DNA from: Arthrobacter gengyunqii
Lineage (GTDB): Bacteria > Actinomycetota > Actinomycetes > Actinomycetales > Micrococcaceae
Length of the DNA stretch: 64,000 bases
Reading direction: 5' to 3'
NCBI RefSeq assembly: GCF_023022985.1
Contig: NZ_CP095461.1
Coordinates: 1,488,001 to 1,552,000, forward strand
Below are positions 54,038 through 61,178 of this stretch, in pieces (position 1 is the stretch's first letter; every line of letters starts with the position of its first letter). Both the position numbers and the translations under genes were made by a program. The notes under the pieces are model-generated. The model was not told the origin of the DNA. It saw only the letters and a list, made by a program, of their open reading frames with translations, and did not search any database.

Positions 54038-55015
54038 ATGACTTCTTACAACAGACTCGGCACATCCGGCCTGACCGTTTCCACCGTGGGACTGGGCTGC
54101 AACAATCTTGGACGCCCCGGCACCCGCACCGAAGAACAGGCGGGGACCGACGCCGTCGTCAACGCGGCAATCGACGCCGGCATTACGCTTTTCGACGTCG
54201 CTGACAGCTACGGTGCGGTCCCCGGCCTGAGCGAGGAAATGCTGGGCAAGGCCCTGGGTGGCCGCCGCGACGACATTGTCCTGGCGACGAAGTTCGGCAT
54301 GGATATGAAGGGCGCCAACGGCCGGGACTTTGATGCCCGCGGTTCGCGCCGGTACATCGTTAAGGCTGCGGAAGCTTCGCTGCGCCGCCTGGGCACGGAC
54401 TGGATTGACCTTTACCAGTTTCACACCCCGGACCCGCTCACGCCGATCGAGGAGACCCTCGCGGCTTTGGATGACCTGGTCACCAGCGGCAAGGTGCGCT
54501 ACATCGGCCACTCCAACCGTGCCGGCTGGGAGATTGCTGAAGCGGAATTCACGGCACGGATGGGCGGCTTCACACCCTTCATTTCGGCGCAGAACCACTA
54601 CAACCTGTTGGACCGGCGCGCAGAGCTTGAGGTTGTTCCGGCTGCGGAAGCCTACGGTTTGGGCATTCTGCCGTACTTCCCGCTCGCCAACGGACTGCTG
54701 ACGGGCAAGTACAGTTCCGGTAAGGCTCCCGAGGGCAGCCGGCTGACCCACTCCCGGCAGAACCTGCTGGAAAAGGCGGATCTGGACCAGCTCGCAGAAT
54801 TCGGTACCTTCGCCAAGGACCGCGGACTGACCGAAGTTCAGGTGGCCTTCTCCTGGCTGGCTGCGCAGCCGGCAGTTTCTTCAGTCATCGCCGGTGCCAC
54901 CTCGGTGGAGCAGGTCCAGCAAAACGCTGAAGCCGCCTCCTGGGAGCCGTCGGAGAAGGACCTGGAGGAGCTGGACCGGATCTTCCCGCGGACGCCGAAG
55001 GTTGCCTTGTTCTAG
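54038..55015 (+). CDS. Aldo/keto reductase
   Basis: A 325-residue NADPH-dependent oxidoreductase with a TIM-barrel fold. The tetrad residues can be read: Asp and Tyr in DVADSYGAV, Lys in ATKFGMD, His in LYQFHTPDPL. Coenzyme residues are in SSVIAGATSVEQVQQNAEAA near the C-terminus. This is close to the general Tas/YhdN-like group; the substrate is unknown. The frame extends to 54020, but a leaderless-type -10 favours the ATG at 54038. The structured repeat starts 25 nt after its stop. Confidence 0.9.
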   Translation: MTSYNRLGTSGLTVSTVGLGCNNLGRPGTRTEEQAGTDAVVNAAIDAGITLFDVADSYGAVPGLSEEMLGKALGGRRDDIVLATKFGMDMKGANGRDFDARGSRRYIVKAAEASLRRLGTDWIDLYQFHTPDPLTPIEETLAALDDLVTSGKVRYIGHSNRAGWEIAEAEFTARMGGFTPFISAQNHYNLLDRRAELEVVPAAEAYGLGILPYFPLANGLLTGKYSSGKAPEGSRLTHSRQNLLEKADLDQLAEFGTFAKDRGLTEVQVAFSWLAAQPAVSSVIAGATSVEQVQQNAEAASWEPSEKDLEELDRIFPRTPKVALF

Positions 55016-55040: not shown

Positions 55041-55130
55041 CGCCGGAGGATCCGGAACGGCGGCAACGAAAATCCCTCGCTCGCAGAGCTCGCCGGGATT
55101 ATTAAAGCCGCCTAACCCGGACCTCCGGCG
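55041..55130 (+). repeat. Structured intergenic repeat, copy 1 (intact)
   Basis: A 90-nt element folds end to end as one interrupted hairpin: outer stem CGCCGGAGGATCCGG with CCGGACCTCCGGCG (one bulge), loop AAC/TAAC, stem GGCGGC/GCCGCC, loop AACGAA/ATTAAA, stem AATCCC/GGGATT, and an apical GCTC-GCA-GAGC. It lies 25 nt after the aldo/keto reductase stop, in the same orientation. It matches copy 2 (57838-57859 joined to 58941-59017) in 55 of 61 core positions. Helices carry compensatory changes and internal loops are identical. Function is unknown; RNA structure, terminator or small palindromic mobile sequence are options. Confidence 0.75.
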
Positions 55131-55225
55131 TCATGCACAGCCCTGCCCACCCCGGTCGTCCGGGCGGGGTCAATCAAGGCCTGTTCAGGTGCCGCAAGTT
55201 CGTGCGTCGTGTGGGCTGGTTTCGT

Positions 55226-55858
55226 TCACGGCCCTTGCTGGCCCGGAGTCGAATGACCCGGATCTACGGTATGCCCGGGTTCTCGGGGAACGAAGATCCG
55301 TATTTTGGCGCCGTCGTCCTGTACCAGCGCACCAGCGGGCTGCCCACGTACCGCACCTATGAGTACAAAGTCCCCAGCCGAACCCGCGAAATTCAGGGTG
55401 AGCACGACATACGCGGTTAGCCGGAAATCAGCGGGAAGCAGAAACCATGCTGCGAGCAGGACAGCTCCCCACACGATGCACGGCGCCAAGGCTGCGATCA
55501 CGAAACTTCGGTGGCTGAGGTACGCCCGGCTTCCTGTGGTGAGGAAGGGGAAAGCCATCCCGTAAAAGGGCCGAATACCGGTCAGAACATGTATTGCAAC
55601 GCCGTGGGTCGCTTCGTGAACTGCCATATAAACGAGGACGGAAATCGCGGTCACTGCGATGGTGCCCCAAAGACTCCAGCCAGAGGTGAGAGGCAGAGCG
55701 AACACCAGAGCTGCGGTGCCGGCAGCAAGGACAATGAGAAGGAAGAATGACTGGGTGGCGAGCTGGAACTTCCGCTCGTTTTTGATATCGATGGTCTGGT
55801 GGAGGAGATAACCAGTCGGGAGCGCTGAAATCCCGCGTGCCTTGGCCTGACCTGTCAT
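55226..55858 (-). CDS. DUF3267-type membrane metalloprotease-like protein
   Basis: A 210-residue membrane protein with about four helices and an HExxH motif, H81-EAT-H85, within helix VYMAVHEATHGVAIHVLTG. This is the DUF3267/M50-like pattern of putative intramembrane zinc proteases. A second motif region, LNFAGSAGDFVLIG, contains the Asp that often completes zinc binding in this group (GDxxLI). Substrate is unknown. Start ATG 55858 with GGAGG upstream; the frame to 55915 is not preferred. Its upstream region shares a 47-nt segment with that of the flavodoxin gene. Confidence 0.8.
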   Translation of the reverse strand: MTGQAKARGISALPTGYLLHQTIDIKNERKFQLATQSFFLLIVLAAGTAALVFALPLTSGWSLWGTIAVTAISVLVYMAVHEATHGVAIHVLTGIRPFYGMAFPFLTTGSRAYLSHRSFVIAALAPCIVWGAVLLAAWFLLPADFRLTAYVVLTLNFAGSAGDFVLIGAVRGQPAGALVQDDGAKIRIFVPREPGHTVDPGHSTPGQQGP

Positions 55859-55904
55859 GTCTGTCCTCCGAGTCCGTCTTCTCCATGCTTGCAGCCGTTG
55901 CCGC

Positions 55905-55951
55905 GAGTGCAGCACACTGCAGCGCCCGCGGCAAGAGAGACTGGGGCAGGG
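55905..55951 (-). repeat. Shared promoter-region repeat, copy 1
   Basis: About 47 nt identical in 38 positions to 57280-57328, in the same orientation and about 50 nt before a leftward start codon in both cases. On the leftward strand it contains TTGCCG, a 17-nt spacer and TGCACT, resembling a weak promoter. Confidence 0.6.
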
Positions 55952-56079
55952 TCCAAGGTGCTCCGGAGGGCCGTGGCATGGATTGACAGTCGTCCGTCAA
56001 GGCATAATCCTGCTAAACGGCCGGTGGATGTCCCGGCATGACGCGATCAGCAAAGACCGTGAGGCGAAGGGGGGGCAGC

Positions 56080-56691
56080 GTGGGAACAATCTCCCTGGAC
56101 CTGTTCATGAGCATCGACGGCGTGTATCAGGGCCCTGGCAGCGCTGACGAGGACCCGTCTGATGGCTTCACCCTGGGAGGCTGGCAGGCAGCCTATTCGG
56201 ACGCCGAGTCGGGCCGTGCGATTATGGCCGGCATAAACCGGATGGACGCGCTGCTGCTTGGGAGAAGAACCTACGACATCTTCGCCGGCTACTGGCCGCA
56301 GCGCGGAACTTGGAACCCCATTGCCAAGAAGTTCAACTCCATGGCCAAGTACGTCGTGTCCCGGACAATGGACGACGCCGGCTGGCAGGGGACGGCGGTC
56401 CTCCCGGAAGTTGAACAGGCAGCCGGCCTCAAGGATAAGTATGAGGACATCCACGTAGTGGGCAGCGGTGCCCTCGCCGGGTCGCTGCTGGACTCCGGCA
56501 TCCTCGATCGACTCAACCTCTTCATTTATCCCTTGACGTTGGGTACCGGCAAACGGATCTTCTCGGCAGGAAGGAGTGTGCCGGCGGCATTCACGTTGGC
56601 CGGGACACCGGAGGCCTTTCCTTCCGGGGTGCTCCGCCTGATCTACGATCGCTCAGGTACCCCAGTCACGGGGATTACTGCGGGGGAGTAG
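56080..56691 (+). CDS. Dihydrofolate-reductase-like (RibD C-terminal) family protein
   Basis: A 203-residue reductase of the RibD C-terminal/DHFR-like superfamily, likely using NADPH. Pattern: TISLDLFMSIDGVYQGPG at the start, then MDALLLGRRTYDIFAGYWP, then DIHVVGSGALAGSLLDSGILD and the closing TLAGTPEAFPSGVLRLIYDR. Real substrate unknown (such proteins include antibiotic- and pterin-type reductases). The GTG at 56080 with a GAAGGGGG site fits the conserved start; the frame begins at 56038. Convergent with the flavodoxin gene, 16 nt between stops. Confidence 0.88.
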   Translation: MGTISLDLFMSIDGVYQGPGSADEDPSDGFTLGGWQAAYSDAESGRAIMAGINRMDALLLGRRTYDIFAGYWPQRGTWNPIAKKFNSMAKYVVSRTMDDAGWQGTAVLPEVEQAAGLKDKYEDIHVVGSGALAGSLLDSGILDRLNLFIYPLTLGTGKRIFSAGRSVPAAFTLAGTPEAFPSGVLRLIYDRSGTPVTGITAGE

Positions 56692-56707
56692 GTCCGCTCC
56701 TGGCAGC

Positions 56708-57226
56708 TCATGCGCCATGGTTGGGTGCCTGCTGAGCCACTGCTGCAGCCCATTGCGCAGCACGCTCCAGTTCACCGTCCAGCAGTGGACCTTCGTAGCC
56801 GTGGACCCGGAACGATATTGCCTTTTCCGATGTGCTGAATCCCAGGGAACGCATCTCATGTCTCGCTGCTTTGGCCGCGGAACCGGGAAGCCGCGGCTTG
56901 TCGACCCGGGTGTCGAAGGCCGCGGCAGGGGTCCCACCCACGGGCCGCTCCAGCTCGCTGAGCCACTCCCGGATGCCGCGGGACGGTTGGTGCGGAGCCG
57001 CATGGGACTTGACCGCTTCATCCCTGGTCCCCGGCCGGGTCATGGAGAAGGCGTGGGTCGGCCCTCCGACCACCACGAGGTCGTATCCGGCGGCCGATTC
57101 AGGCGCCTCATCGGTGTCCGTCACGGTGACGTCCGCACCGGCGGTCCTCAGCGCTTCCGCGACTGCGCGGGCCACCTGCTCCGTGTTCCCCCAAAGCGAC
57201 TCATAGACCAGAAGTACCCGCACCAT
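56708..57226 (-). CDS. Flavodoxin-like protein
   Basis: A 172-residue flavodoxin fold protein. The FMN phosphate-binding loop is VYESLWGNTEQVARAV at the N-terminus, and the FMN-stacking segment is DLVVVGGPTHAFSMTRPG. Members carry electrons or act as FMN-dependent quinone reductases. Start ATG with GGAGG upstream. The promoter region shares a repeat with that of the DUF3267 gene. Confidence 0.85.
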   Translation of the reverse strand: MVRVLLVYESLWGNTEQVARAVAEALRTAGADVTVTDTDEAPESAAGYDLVVVGGPTHAFSMTRPGTRDEAVKSHAAPHQPSRGIREWLSELERPVGGTPAAAFDTRVDKPRLPGSAAKAARHEMRSLGFSTSEKAISFRVHGYEGPLLDGELERAAQWAAAVAQQAPNHGA

Positions 57227-57279
57227 TGCCTCCAGCTGCTCAGTTCACATGCGGGTCGCGTCCAGCCGCCCGTCCCGGA

Positions 57280-57328
57280 GAGTGCACCACACAGCAGCAG
57301 CCGCGACAAGAGAGATAGGGTCGGGGCG
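57280..57328 (-). repeat. Shared promoter-region repeat, copy 2
   Basis: Counterpart of 55905-55951, with TTGTCG, a 17-nt spacer and TGCACT on the leftward strand, 54 nt before the flavodoxin start. The conserved parts include AAGAGAGA and CAGC. Confidence 0.6.
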
Positions 57329-57349
57329 GGCGATAACTAAGGCTGTGAG

Positions 57350-57445
57350 TTACGCGGCAGCCACAGCCGCCACGTGAAACTTCTTGCCGTTCACACGCTC
57401 GTGACGCAATTGCACCCCGGGTTGGATGTAAGGCGTCCGCCGGTG
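57350..57445 (-). pseudogene. fadB-like C-terminal remnant
   Basis: A leftward frame ending in TAA reads HRRTPYIQPGVQLRHERVNG, then KKFHVAAVAAA. The end of FadB in this window reads HLGGITPYLDRVGASERVNG, then KKFHAEKEPAQAAS. The TPY and ERVNGKKFH blocks coincide, and the DNA for VNGKKFH is nearly identical (about 20 of 22 bases). It has no start codon and lies right after the DUF4287 stop. I read it as the tail of a lost fadB paralogue or a local duplication; chance cannot be ruled out for so short a stretch. Confidence 0.4.
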
Positions 57446-57456
57446 CACCGCCGCCG

Positions 57457-57747
57457 CTATGCGGGCTTGGTCGCTTTGCCGTCAAGCCAGAGGAGCTCGG
57501 TCTCATCTCGGTGGGGGCCATCGGTCCCAACATACTTCGCTTCGATCTCCGGACCCTTCTTGATGACGTGGACCAGCGCCATGCCGTGACCGCGGCCCAA
57601 CCCGTAGTCTGTTTTGAGCCACTCCAGGATCTGCCCAGCCTTGATGTCGCTGTGGTCGAGTCCCTTTTGTTTCGCCACATCGAGCACCTGACGGGGAGTA
57701 AGCCCCGTCTTGTCCTCAATGGCGTCGAGGTACGCCTGGAATGACAT
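57457..57747 (-). CDS. DUF4287 domain protein
   Basis: A 96-residue protein matching DUF4287: SFQAYLDAIEDKTGLTPRQV, then a helix and GQILEWLKTDYGLGRGHGMA with ALVHVIKKGP. The family occurs alone or joined to other small domains and is of unknown function. ATG with GAAGGAGA 5-8 nt upstream. It is followed 12 nt later by the fadB-like remnant. Confidence 0.85.
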   Translation of the reverse strand: MSFQAYLDAIEDKTGLTPRQVLDVAKQKGLDHSDIKAGQILEWLKTDYGLGRGHGMALVHVIKKGPEIEAKYVGTDGPHRDETELLWLDGKATKPA

Positions 57748-57837
57748 CGGGTTCTCCTTCGACTGGATTCTGGGGCGTGCTGATTCCAGCGTAGGCGCGC
57801 TGCCCTTCTCGGGGCAGACCCGGGCATTAACGCATAA

Positions 57838-57859
57838 GCGCCGGACGGACCGGGTTAGG
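57838..57859 (-). repeat. Structured repeat, copy 2, 3' arm (left of the IS)
   Basis: This is the 3' end of the second structured element, cut off by the IS. It holds GCGCCGGACGGACCGG on the plus strand, the partner of the 5' stem at 59002-59017, followed by the target duplication GTTAGG. Confidence 0.7.
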
Positions 57860-58940
57860 TGTACCCGGCCATTAGGTTGGTAGCAGGCGGCTGATGGGTG
57901 GTTTGCCTCCGAGTGCGCTGTGGCGTCGTTCATTGTTGTAGTGCTCGAGCCATGGCGCAAGTGCCGCTGCCCGCTCGTCGTTGCTGGTGAAGATCCGTCG
58001 GTAGGCCCATTCGGTGGCCAGGGTGCGGTTCAGGCGCTCCACCTTGCCGTTCTGCCAGGGGCAGTGCGGTTTGATGAACTTCTGCGTGATGCCGTAGGCG
58101 GCGCAGAGATCACGCAGCGAGTAGCGGTAGGCCCAGGCGTTGTCGGTCATCAAGCGCTCGATCCGTGTGATGCCGTGTGAAGCGAAGTAGGTGATGGCCC
58201 GTTCCAGGAACCCCGCGCAGGTGTTTCCTTTCTCGTCGGGCAGGATCTCGCTGTAGGCCAGCCGGGAGTGATCATCGATCACGGAGTGGACGTAGTCGTA
58301 GCCGACTTTGATCTGCTTGCGCGCGTTCGTGGAGCCCATTTGCCGCCCGTGGGCCTTCCAGCCGCCGCCGTCGGGGATCTTGCCGAGCTTTTTGACGTCC
58401 ATGTGCACCAGCTCGCCGGGCGTTTCGCGCTCGTACCGCACGGCAGTGGCCTTCGATGAGCGGATCACCTCTCCGGTGATCGGGTCGCAGTCACGCAGGA
58501 AGGCCGTGCCATGGCGGCGAAGGATCCGGGATACCGTTCGCGCCGGGACGCCCAGCATCGGTCCGAGCACGTCGGGCCCGGCGCGATGCTCAGCGCGCGC
58601 GGAGAGGACCTTCTGCTCAGTGTCGGTGCTGGTGCGCGTTGGCATCGTGTGCGGCCGGGAGGATCGTGTGGCCAGCCCTGCTTCGCCTTCAGCGTCGTAG
58701 CGGTCGATCCAGGTCTTCACGCACTTGCGTGAGACACCCATAGCGGCCGCGATATGGGCCTGTTTCCAGCCAGACTGGTGGCGATGGACGATCAGCAGCC
58801 GGCCATAAACGGTCAAACGGGCATTACTGTGGGACACGAGAACCTCCGGGTTGGAGTGGGCCTTTGACAAGCCACATCCCATCCGGAGGTTCTCCTTCGT
58901 TCAACCAGACACGCCGTTACCAACGTCCTGGCCGGGTACA
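57860..58940. mobile_element. IS481-family insertion sequence, 1081 bp
   Basis: A complete element bounded by imperfect 25-bp terminal inverted repeats, TGTACCCGGCCATTAGGTTG... at the left and TGTACCCGGCCAGGACGTTG... at the right (21 of 25 matching). Both ends are flanked by a 6-bp direct repeat, GTTAGG (57854-57859 and 58941-58946), typical of a transposition target duplication. It carries one leftward transposase gene with all catalytic residues. Removing the element and one GTTAGG rebuilds the second structured repeat exactly as in copy 1, so this was a clean insertion. Confidence 0.92.
57872..58837 (-). CDS. IS481 family transposase
   Basis: A 321-residue DDE-type transposase. The N-terminal HTH (WKQAHIAAAMGVSRKCVKTW) precedes the rve integrase core with the acidic triad in VHMDVKKLG, LMTDNAWAYR and GKVERLNRTL, and the IS481-type ending NNERRHSALGGKPPISRL. 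The GTG at 58837 has GGAGG 6 nt upstream; the frame to 58882 lacks a site. The stop falls inside the left inverted repeat. No frameshift or internal stop was found, so the enzyme should be functional. Confidence 0.93.
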   Translation of the reverse strand: MSHSNARLTVYGRLLIVHRHQSGWKQAHIAAAMGVSRKCVKTWIDRYDAEGEAGLATRSSRPHTMPTRTSTDTEQKVLSARAEHRAGPDVLGPMLGVPARTVSRILRRHGTAFLRDCDPITGEVIRSSKATAVRYERETPGELVHMDVKKLGKIPDGGGWKAHGRQMGSTNARKQIKVGYDYVHSVIDDHSRLAYSEILPDEKGNTCAGFLERAITYFASHGITRIERLMTDNAWAYRYSLRDLCAAYGITQKFIKPHCPWQNGKVERLNRTLATEWAYRRIFTSNDERAAALAPWLEHYNNERRHSALGGKPPISRLLPT

Positions 58941-59017
58941 GTTAGGCGGCTTTAATAATCCTTGCGAGCTCTGCGAGTACAGGATTTTCGTTGCCGCCGT
59001 TCCGGTCCGCCCGGCGC
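58941..59017 (-). repeat. Structured repeat, copy 2, 5' arm and core (right of the IS)
   Basis: Starting 19 nt after the fadB stop and read leftward, this carries the 5' stem GCGCCGGGCGGACCGG, loop AAC, stem GGCGGC, loop AACGAA, stem AATCCT, apical CTC-GCA-GAG, stem AGGATT, loop ATTAAA, stem GCCGCC and TAAC. The outer 3' stem is on the far side of the IS at 57838-57853. When joined, 16 outer base pairs form (one G.T). Confidence 0.72.
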
Positions 59018-59036: not shown

Positions 59037-61178
59037 TTAGGAAGCGGCCTGAGCCGGTTCCTTCTCCGCATGGAACTTCTTGCCGTTCACGCGTTCGGAC
59101 GCACCGACGCGGTCCAGGTACGGTGTGATTCCGCCCAGGTGCATCGGCCAGCCGGCGCCCAGGATCATGCACAGGTCGATGTCCTCGGGACCCGCCACCA
59201 CGCCTTCGTCCAGCATGCGGCCGATCTCATCCGCCAGGGCATCCTGTGTGCGCCGCAGGACCTCTTCGGAGGTGGACGGTGTGTTGCCGAAGGCCAGCAT
59301 CGCCAGCGTTTCGGCCGGAATGTACGGCTTTCCGTCCTCATCCTTCTGCCAGAGCGACTTGATGCCGGCGTCGATGATCTTCTGCGAGTTCTCCGACAGC
59401 CAGAACCGCTCGCCAAACGCTGCGTGCAGGGATTCCTGCACGTGCTGTCCCACCGGCAGGCCCACCAGGGCCAGCAGGGTGAACGGGGACATCGGCAGGC
59501 CCATGGGGCGCAGTGCGTTGTCCGCCGTCGCGGCGTCGGTTCCTTCGTCGAAGACGGCGGTGATTTCGCCGAACATGCGGCCCAGGATCCGGTTGACCAC
59601 AAACGCGGCGTCGTCCTTGACCAGCACGGCCGTCTTCTTCAGCGCCTTGGCCAGGACAAACGCAGTAGCCAGCACGGCGTCGTCGGTCTTGGGAGCACGC
59701 ACGATTTCCAGCAGCGGCATGACAGCCACCGGGTTGAAGAAGTGGAAGCCCACCACGCGCTCCGGGTGCTGCAGGTCAGCGGCCATCTCCGTCACGGACA
59801 GTGACGAGGTGTTGGTGGCCAGGATGCACTCGGGGGAGACCACGGCCTCCACCTCGGCGAACACCTGCTTCTTGACCGAGAGTTCCTCGAACACGGCCTC
59901 GATCACGAAGTCTGCATCCGAGAACGCTTCCTTGGAGACAGAGCCCGAGACCAGAGCCTTGGTGCGGTTGGCGGCATCGGGGGAGATGCGTCCCTTGGCC
60001 AGGAGCTTGTCCACCTCGGCATGCACGTAGCCCACGCCCTTGTCCACGCGTGCCTGGTCAATGTCCGTCATGACAACGGGCACCTTCAGCTGCCGTGCGA
60101 ACAGCAGCGCGAGCTGGCTGGCCATCAGGCCGGCACCCACCACGCCCACCTTGGAGACCGGACGGGCCAGCTTCTTGTCCGGAGCGCCGGCGGGGCGCTT
60201 GCCGCGCTTCTGGACCAGGTCCAGGAACGCGTACACGGTGGAGTGGAACTGTGGGGTCTGCATCAGTTCAGCCAGCGCTTCGCACTCGGCGTCGCGGGAC
60301 TGCTCGGCGGTCCAGTTCTTGCCGGCCTCCAGCAGGTCCAGCACCTTCGCGGGAGCCGGGGCTGCGTTGGAGGTACGGGCTTCCACCACGGCACGGCCGT
60401 GTGCGACGGCGGCGTCCCAGGCTTCGGGGGTGGCGGACGGATCCGCGGCGTTCGGCCGGGAGACGGTTTCTTCACCGGTGATGACGCGGGCGGCCCACGC
60501 CAGGGACTGCTCCACGAAGTCGGCCGGTTCAAACAGTGCATCGGCGATGCCAAGCTTGAACGCCGCCGGTCCGGAGAGGGTGCGGTTGTTGCTCAGGGGG
60601 TTCTCGATCATGACCTTGACGGCGTTTTCGGGTCCGATCAGGCGCGGCAGGATGTAAACGCCGCCCCAGCCCGGAACCAGGCCGATGAAGGCTTCCGGCA
60701 GGGCGAGTGCCCCGGCGCCGGTGGAGACGGTGCGGTACTGGGACTGCAGGGCAATTTCCAGCCCCCCGCCCAGCGCCACGCCGTTGATGAACGCGAAGCT
60801 GGGCACGCCCAGGGTGTGCAGCTTGCCGTAAACCTCGTGGCCCAGGCGGGCCATGGCCAGCCCGTCCTCGTAGGAAGCCAGCTTCTGGGTGGCGGACAGG
60901 TCTGCGCCGGCCACCAGGTAGTGCGGCTTGCCGGTGACGCCGACGCCGACAATTTCGCCCGCATCGGCGCGCGCCTTCAAGGAATCCAGGACTTCGCCCA
61001 GTTCCAGCAGGGTGTTGGGGCCCAGCGTGGTGGGGCGGGTGTGGTCGACATCGTTGTCCAGGGTGATCAGCGCAAAGGTGCCGGCGCCGCCGGGCAGTGC
61101 GATGTCCGAAACGTAGGAGTGGGTGACAACCTCGGTGGGAAAGAGGCCGGCCAGCCGCTGGTAATCGCTTGCAGTCAT
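59037..61178 (-). CDS. fadB: Fatty acid oxidation complex subunit alpha (enoyl-CoA hydratase/3-hydroxyacyl-CoA dehydrogenase)
   Basis: A 713-residue bifunctional enzyme of beta-oxidation. The N-terminal crotonase half has the oxyanion-type block VPSFAFINGVALGGGLEIAL and catalytic LPEAFIGLVPGWGG. The C-terminal 3-hydroxyacyl-CoA dehydrogenase half has the NAD motif VGVVGAGLMASQLA, the conserved TNTSSLSVTEM, and HFFNPVAVMPLLEIV. It pairs with FadA to shorten acyl-CoA. Start ATG overlaps the fadA stop by one base (TAATG). A structured repeat follows its stop; a fadB-like tail remnant lies 1.6 kb away. Confidence 0.96.
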   Translation of the reverse strand: MTASDYQRLAGLFPTEVVTHSYVSDIALPGGAGTFALITLDNDVDHTRPTTLGPNTLLELGEVLDSLKARADAGEIVGVGVTGKPHYLVAGADLSATQKLASYEDGLAMARLGHEVYGKLHTLGVPSFAFINGVALGGGLEIALQSQYRTVSTGAGALALPEAFIGLVPGWGGVYILPRLIGPENAVKVMIENPLSNNRTLSGPAAFKLGIADALFEPADFVEQSLAWAARVITGEETVSRPNAADPSATPEAWDAAVAHGRAVVEARTSNAAPAPAKVLDLLEAGKNWTAEQSRDAECEALAELMQTPQFHSTVYAFLDLVQKRGKRPAGAPDKKLARPVSKVGVVGAGLMASQLALLFARQLKVPVVMTDIDQARVDKGVGYVHAEVDKLLAKGRISPDAANRTKALVSGSVSKEAFSDADFVIEAVFEELSVKKQVFAEVEAVVSPECILATNTSSLSVTEMAADLQHPERVVGFHFFNPVAVMPLLEIVRAPKTDDAVLATAFVLAKALKKTAVLVKDDAAFVVNRILGRMFGEITAVFDEGTDAATADNALRPMGLPMSPFTLLALVGLPVGQHVQESLHAAFGERFWLSENSQKIIDAGIKSLWQKDEDGKPYIPAETLAMLAFGNTPSTSEEVLRRTQDALADEIGRMLDEGVVAGPEDIDLCMILGAGWPMHLGGITPYLDRVGASERVNGKKFHAEKEPAQAAS

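Follow-up and report, generated by a model that had tools for sequence, protein, structure and literature searches.

A covarying extragenic hairpin of Arthrobacter and relatives, with a nearly invariant internal loop and both orientations at rpoB-rpoC

Two copies of a hairpin element, one split by an insertion sequence

The window, meaning the whole stretch of 64,000 nucleotides of Arthrobacter gengyunqii that was analysed, holds two copies of a hairpin element, each lying behind a gene unrelated to the other. The features concerned are given below, with bit scores from R1, a covariance model of the 73-nt core of the element.

54038-55015, plus strand: aldo/keto reductase gene (orthologue match, below curated cut-offs)
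55041-55130, plus strand: hairpin element copy 1, core 55050-55122 (cmsearch with R1, 99.8 bits)
55065-55071, plus strand: copy 1, 5' side of the inner loop, AACGAAA
55100-55106, plus strand: copy 1, 3' side of the inner loop, TATTAAA
57838-57859, minus strand: hairpin element copy 2, 3' arm severed by the insertion
57860-58940, minus strand: IS481-type insertion sequence within copy 2 (LZ_Tnp_IS481 and rve domains; GTTAGG on both sides)
58941-59017, minus strand: hairpin element copy 2, 5' part (cmsearch with R1, 80 bits over 58930-59007)
59037-61178, minus strand: fadB-like fatty acid oxidation gene (orthologue match)

Copy 1 starts 25 nt past the stop codon of the aldo/keto reductase gene and copy 2 starts 19 nt past that of fadB, which is where an earlier, sequence-only reading of the window had placed them, and the coordinates were reconfirmed. 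The compensatory pair changes that this reading listed between the two copies are present in their sequences, and they go beyond chance, as the same structure recurs with many more double changes in all 29 genomes of the genus. Copy 2 is interrupted in its P1/P2 loop by the IS481-type element (1,081 bp), which is flanked by the 6-base sequence GTTAGG at 57854-57859 and 58941-58946; because the insertion splits the copy and leaves GTTAGG on either side, we conclude that copy 2 was formerly one intact hairpin. For the 101-nt stretch that includes copy 1, the folding energy is -55.2 kcal/mol, with a z-score of -5.2 from 200 shuffles; the opposite strand folds as well, at -59.4 kcal/mol (z -6.3). 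A third, weaker copy was found elsewhere in the same genome, between pyrH and frr (G000:C1:1217009-1217077).

The element recurs throughout the genus

Initial copies were chosen by a pattern requiring AACGA, and later ones by a model built from those. The covariance-model search of family genomes proposed with the earlier reading was carried out and returned many homologues behind stop codons: R1 found the element in 29 of 29 genomes of the window's genus, at 2-21 copies per genome, which rules out a simple duplicate, one of two humbler origins that the reading had allowed for. Across the bacterial family, R1 matched 53 of 295 genomes, belonging to 8 of the 32 family genera sampled. In a further genus, g53, there are 21 carrier genomes (a count of carriers, not a share of the g53 genomes in the family sample), whose 1-3 copies per genome lie mostly at rpoB-rpoC, grpE-dnaJ and gyrB-gyrA. 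In the order sample 5 of 297 genomes matched, all within the same family and none outside it, and in the phylum sample, searched with the broader model R2, 3 of 396 matched, these being the genome of the window plus two isolated weak matches (31.8 and 29 bits). The pattern search yielded at least 119 stretches; among the matches listed were Arthrobacter, one Paenarthrobacter and one cyanobacterial bin, the last of which the model did not confirm. In these samples the element is without a convincing match beyond the bacterial family.

A divergent relative, scoring 18-28 bits with R2 and inverted with respect to the genes, was observed at rpoB-rpoC of genus g48 (L315, L316 and L329), with the loop AACGACC in L315 and L316; given this relative, the family may extend further than R1 shows. 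Rfam gave no match at the window's copies up to E 5, with two chance matches elsewhere in the window, and none at the copies in five relatives up to E 1. No such motif was found in the titles and abstract beginnings of the open-access literature either, in agreement with the earlier statement that no described motif matches.

Covarying stems enclose a nearly invariant inner loop

The element is roughly 75-110 bases long and consists of four helices, namely P1 (formed by the arms), P2 (6 pairs), P3 and an apical hairpin, with two internal loops overall. Its outer ends vary and its interior is conserved, P1 continuing outward by at least 4 pairs in 89 of 197 copies. Between P2 and P3 sits an inner loop that the sequence-only reading had given as AACGAA/ATTAAA; the loop is indeed there, but a better reading gives each of its sides one more base, making it a 7 x 7 loop (AACGAAA / TATTAAA).

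In alignment A6 (74 distinct copies), 92.4% of the paired cells were pairs against 71.6% after shuffling, double-change pair cells numbered 300 against a shuffled mean of 92.8, and the covariation score was 0.526 against 0.167, with none of 500 shuffles reaching any of the three observed values. When the partners were slid along the alignment, pairing fell to at most 48.5% and the score to at most 0.125. Double changes occurred in 17 of 20 pairs, a slight excess over the shuffled mean of 14.4, and 6 of 500 shuffles did as well. Since A6 was aligned to the model, these pair counts lean toward the structure; in a MAFFT alignment, A2 (33 rows, 29 distinct), double changes occurred in 8 of 20 pairs against a shuffled mean of 3.3.

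The loop positions A-C-G-A were the same in 74 of 74 distinct copies and the remaining ones almost invariant, except for one variable position on the 3' side (A in 61 copies, G in 12), an invariance that is partly one of ascertainment, because the pattern and the model by which the copies were found contain the loop.

Copies lie behind unrelated genes and inside essential operons

The gene contexts of the copies were taken from a simple codon-usage ORF caller made for this analysis. After removal of 13 exact duplicates from 210 matches, the 197 non-redundant copies fell into 67 between convergent genes (23 loci), 84 tandem-sense (22 loci), 24 tandem-antisense (11 loci), a single divergent one, and 21 other or cut. 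A sense gene lies upstream of 168 copies, at a median of 40.5 nt from stop codon to core, and within 60 nt in 113 of them. Crude C-terminal clustering distinguished about 40 types of neighbour, and the identified ones are unrelated: besides the aldo/keto reductase and fadB, they include icd, uvrA-like, heme o synthase, nadE, citrate synthase, fabF, thymidine phosphorylase, proC and hisD genes, among others. These unrelated neighbours, together with the stem covariation, make the second origin allowed for at the outset, the decayed tail of a protein gene, unlikely. Co-directional sites inside operons were also found, at rpoB-rpoC, grpE-dnaJ, gyrB-gyrA and pyrH-frr (both partners identified, one example each).

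One recurrent antisense copy lies 116-162 nt ahead of the start of an exonuclease III gene, which was identified for L271 and, by a similar gene start, for L297, L040, L071, L078 and L092; no sense gene was found for this copy.

Orientation has switched repeatedly at rpoB-rpoC

The rpoB-rpoC spacer was located by its flanking genes, not by the motif, in 21 g53 genomes, of which 14 carried the element in sense, 6 carried it inverted and 1 was without it. The 14 include G189, labelled 'both' by the script from a chance match and sense by eye; this genome and G289, the one without the element, lie outside the 19 labelled rows used for counting changes. On a tree built from the flanking ends of rpoB and rpoC, 5 orientation changes were counted among these 19 rows, the inverted group needs 6 changes, with well-supported branches forcing 5 of them, and the hypothesis of one inverted clade was rejected (p-AU 7.8e-60). 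An earlier, overlapping set of 22 rows, likewise placed on a tree of the flanking gene ends, with two identical rows left out and seven window-genus loci absent, gave 8 inverted copies, 8 changes, 7 of them forced, and a p-AU of 3.2e-6; L246 was labelled sense by hand, the pattern having missed its loop change. Several sister pairs are of opposite orientation, among them G250/G106 and G275/G242, and the inverted labels are unclustered on either tree (500 of 500 shuffles as low), which suits frequent switching or exchange of spacers. The switches may alternatively have arisen through interspecies recombination of the spacer, or through the element being replaced by an inverted copy.

The loop is kept when the element is inverted: AACGAAA occurs in 6 of 6 flank-anchored inverted copies and TATTAAA in 5 of 6, and among the 14 sense copies 2 have C or G as the first base of the loop and there are also changes on the 3' side. 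Seven inverted copies differed from one another by 2.0% in the inner loop and 0.0% in P2, as against 37.8% at fourfold sites of rpoB; across both genes, the pairwise range was 22-51% (8 genomes). One apical sequence type is common to 6 of 6 inverted and 12 of 12 sense rpoB-rpoC copies (A6 rows of g53 and near relatives), and this type is found in 0 of 21 grpE-dnaJ copies and 1 of 2 pyrH-frr copies and is absent from the inverted copy of genus g8. The common type makes turning in place, or exchange of the whole spacer, likelier than insertion from elsewhere. Inverted copies at rpoB-rpoC were also present in G024, of the window's genus, and in the divergent g48 relatives, and grpE-dnaJ holds 19 sense and 2 inverted copies. 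With 24 of 108 tandem copies antisense and 6 of 20 inverted at rpoB-rpoC, the orientation of the element is not fixed in sense.

At rpoB-rpoC of G127 (L327 / L242), a sense copy adjoins an apparent core-less remnant of an inverted copy, which looks like local turnover of the element. Where the element is missing from this spacer, the genomes often show, by eye, another GC-rich hairpin behind the rpoB stop (L311, L312, L321-L326, L330 and L388).

Comparison with known palindromes and structured RNAs

REP and BIME elements and the GTAG-tagged REP super-family, which is associated with RAYT transposases, are described in the cited passages as palindromes of 20-40 bp (PMC3733652, PMC2817692), usually present in more than 100 copies per genome (PMC2817692). 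Our element resembles REPs and BIMEs in being a dispersed extragenic palindrome, 3' of genes and in both orientations, with some copies in close pairs, and under a loose definition (an extragenic repeated palindrome 3' of genes in either orientation) it is a REP. It differs from them in having a 73-nt core plus arms, in occurring in 2-21 copies, in having two internal loops, one of them nearly invariant, in its shared places in essential operons, and in lacking both a constant GTAG tag and a RAYT match in the genus. GTAG was found at 28 of 195 copies and at 81 of 975 random places, a weak excess. The RAYT domain, PF01797 (Y1 transposase), matched 11 of 295 family genomes, none of them in the window's genus or g53, and RAYT-driven REPs were rejected for want of a match in the genus. 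As the element departs from the usual tag, size, copy number and RAYT association, we regard it as a variant of the extragenic palindromes that falls outside the narrower definitions of REP. CGTC-tagged REPs are said, in the passage cited, to be without a dedicated transposase (PMC3733652); the element is like them in having no linked transposase, but it is a longer, looped structure, and CGTC is not enriched at its copies (33 of 195, against 257 of 975 random places). The table of RepRanger contains a row for Arthrobacter livingstonensis with thousands of REP candidates (PMC12306157); that is a mechanical count of palindromes, accompanied in the relevant passage by no motif, whereas the present element numbers 2-21 per genome.

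The element shares covarying stems and conserved internal loops with the structured RNAs of Rfam, but it lies 3' of genes and its orientation is not fixed. Hairpins shaped by template switching, as the cited parts of two studies describe them (PMC8794818, PMC8604942), are alike in that arms are kept complementary and spacers become inverted; template switching, however, is a mechanism of mutation rather than a family of elements, and it does not account for a conserved unpaired inner loop.

Close pairs of the element, inverted or in tandem and with gaps of about 47-357 nt, were observed at L256, L080, L291 and L265, and recall BIME dimers.

A proposed folded site recognised through its inner loop

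The fold is kept by double changes in the stems, the loop is kept, the copies are placed 3' of genes and the orientation has switched repeatedly at rpoB-rpoC. The reading that we favour, tentatively and at a little short of even chances, is that these are REP-like extragenic hairpins acting as folded sites, whose inner loop is bound by a putative factor in either orientation. The nearly invariant loop would be the binding site of this factor, which would recognise either folded DNA (a cruciform or a single strand) or RNA of either strand, and its binding might bound or insulate neighbouring transcription units, or shield the end of the upstream mRNA. Template switching during DNA replication yields both compensatory stem changes and spacer inversions in the cases that the cited parts of those studies treat (PMC8794818, PMC8604942). 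Switching between the element's own arms is probably responsible in part for both its stem covariation and its changes of orientation, which may be one and the same process. As template switching makes compensatory changes, covariation alone is no proof of RNA function; of the earlier claim of selection on structure, the selected folded strand, with its strong covariation, stands, and the use of compensatory changes alone as a pointer to RNA does not. Mutation leaves unexplained why an unpaired loop stays constant in both orientations, and this is our reason for taking the element to be a folded site that is recognised via its loop.

A different explanation, which we judge unlikely, is that the element is a cis-acting RNA of 3' UTRs and intercistronic mRNA, with a putative protein or RNase binding the loop and setting the stability or processing of the upstream message, and with inverted copies being inert accidents. 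It would suit the closeness of the 168 copies to an upstream sense stop, the strong covariation, the other GC-rich hairpins seen by eye behind rpoB in several element-free genomes and the tandem loci, which lean to sense by 22 to 11. This lean also counts against a strand-blind reading, as a fully strand-blind site would not need it; it leaves room for an mRNA role too, and a site that flips frequently could owe its loop partly to the time spent in sense orientation. The RNA explanation is countered by the inverted share of the flank-anchored rpoB-rpoC copies and by the retention of their loop across deep divergence; an element kept in both orientations at this place fits folded DNA or a strand-blind site better than an RNA of one strand.

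Less likely again is a selfish palindrome of REPIN or MITE type, which a putative loop-recognising enzyme would move in trans, any host role being secondary. The variation of copy number inside a single genus, the variety of neighbours and the apparent inverted remnant beside the sense copy of G127 would fit mobility, as would a convergent site of G008 that holds the element in 6 genomes and lacks it in 3 others where both neighbours are retained (20 were uninformative). The empty versions of this site are too diverged to align, so that neither a clean boundary of insertion nor a duplicated target could be made out. Further points against mobility are that the ends are variable and the inside conserved, that Y1 transposase is without a match in the window's genus and g53, and that the g53 carriers hold their few copies mostly at the same three operon sites.

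A family of intrinsic terminators, for which the stable GC-rich hairpin and its place behind stop codons might speak, is very improbable and had already been doubted from the sequence, as a T-rich tract lies within 40 nt of just 4 of 195 copies (14 of 985 random 40-mers), a terminator scan of the window found none at its two copies, several copies sit between co-directional essential genes, and a conserved 7 x 7 loop would be superfluous for termination.

A more specific form of the folded-site reading, in which the element represents a class of strand-blind folded-DNA sites that lie between the two large RNA polymerase subunit genes and in other essential operons, flip in place by template switching between their own arms and have their 7 x 7 loop bound by a putative factor, is possible but somewhat doubtful. 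If it were true, natural inversions would offer a way of separating function at the level of DNA from function at the level of RNA. A functional RNA is often regarded as proven by covariation; here an element covaries strongly yet is inverted at orthologous places with its loop kept, making it a test case for the respective shares of replication errors and selection in producing covariation. It also points to a putative factor in essential operons that would recognise folded DNA, or either of the two strands.

A variant of the loop, AACGATA / TAATAAA, was seen in L003 and L196, where one A-A mismatch has apparently shifted by one step and the rest is kept; judged from these sequences, the variant hints that the A-A mismatch matters.
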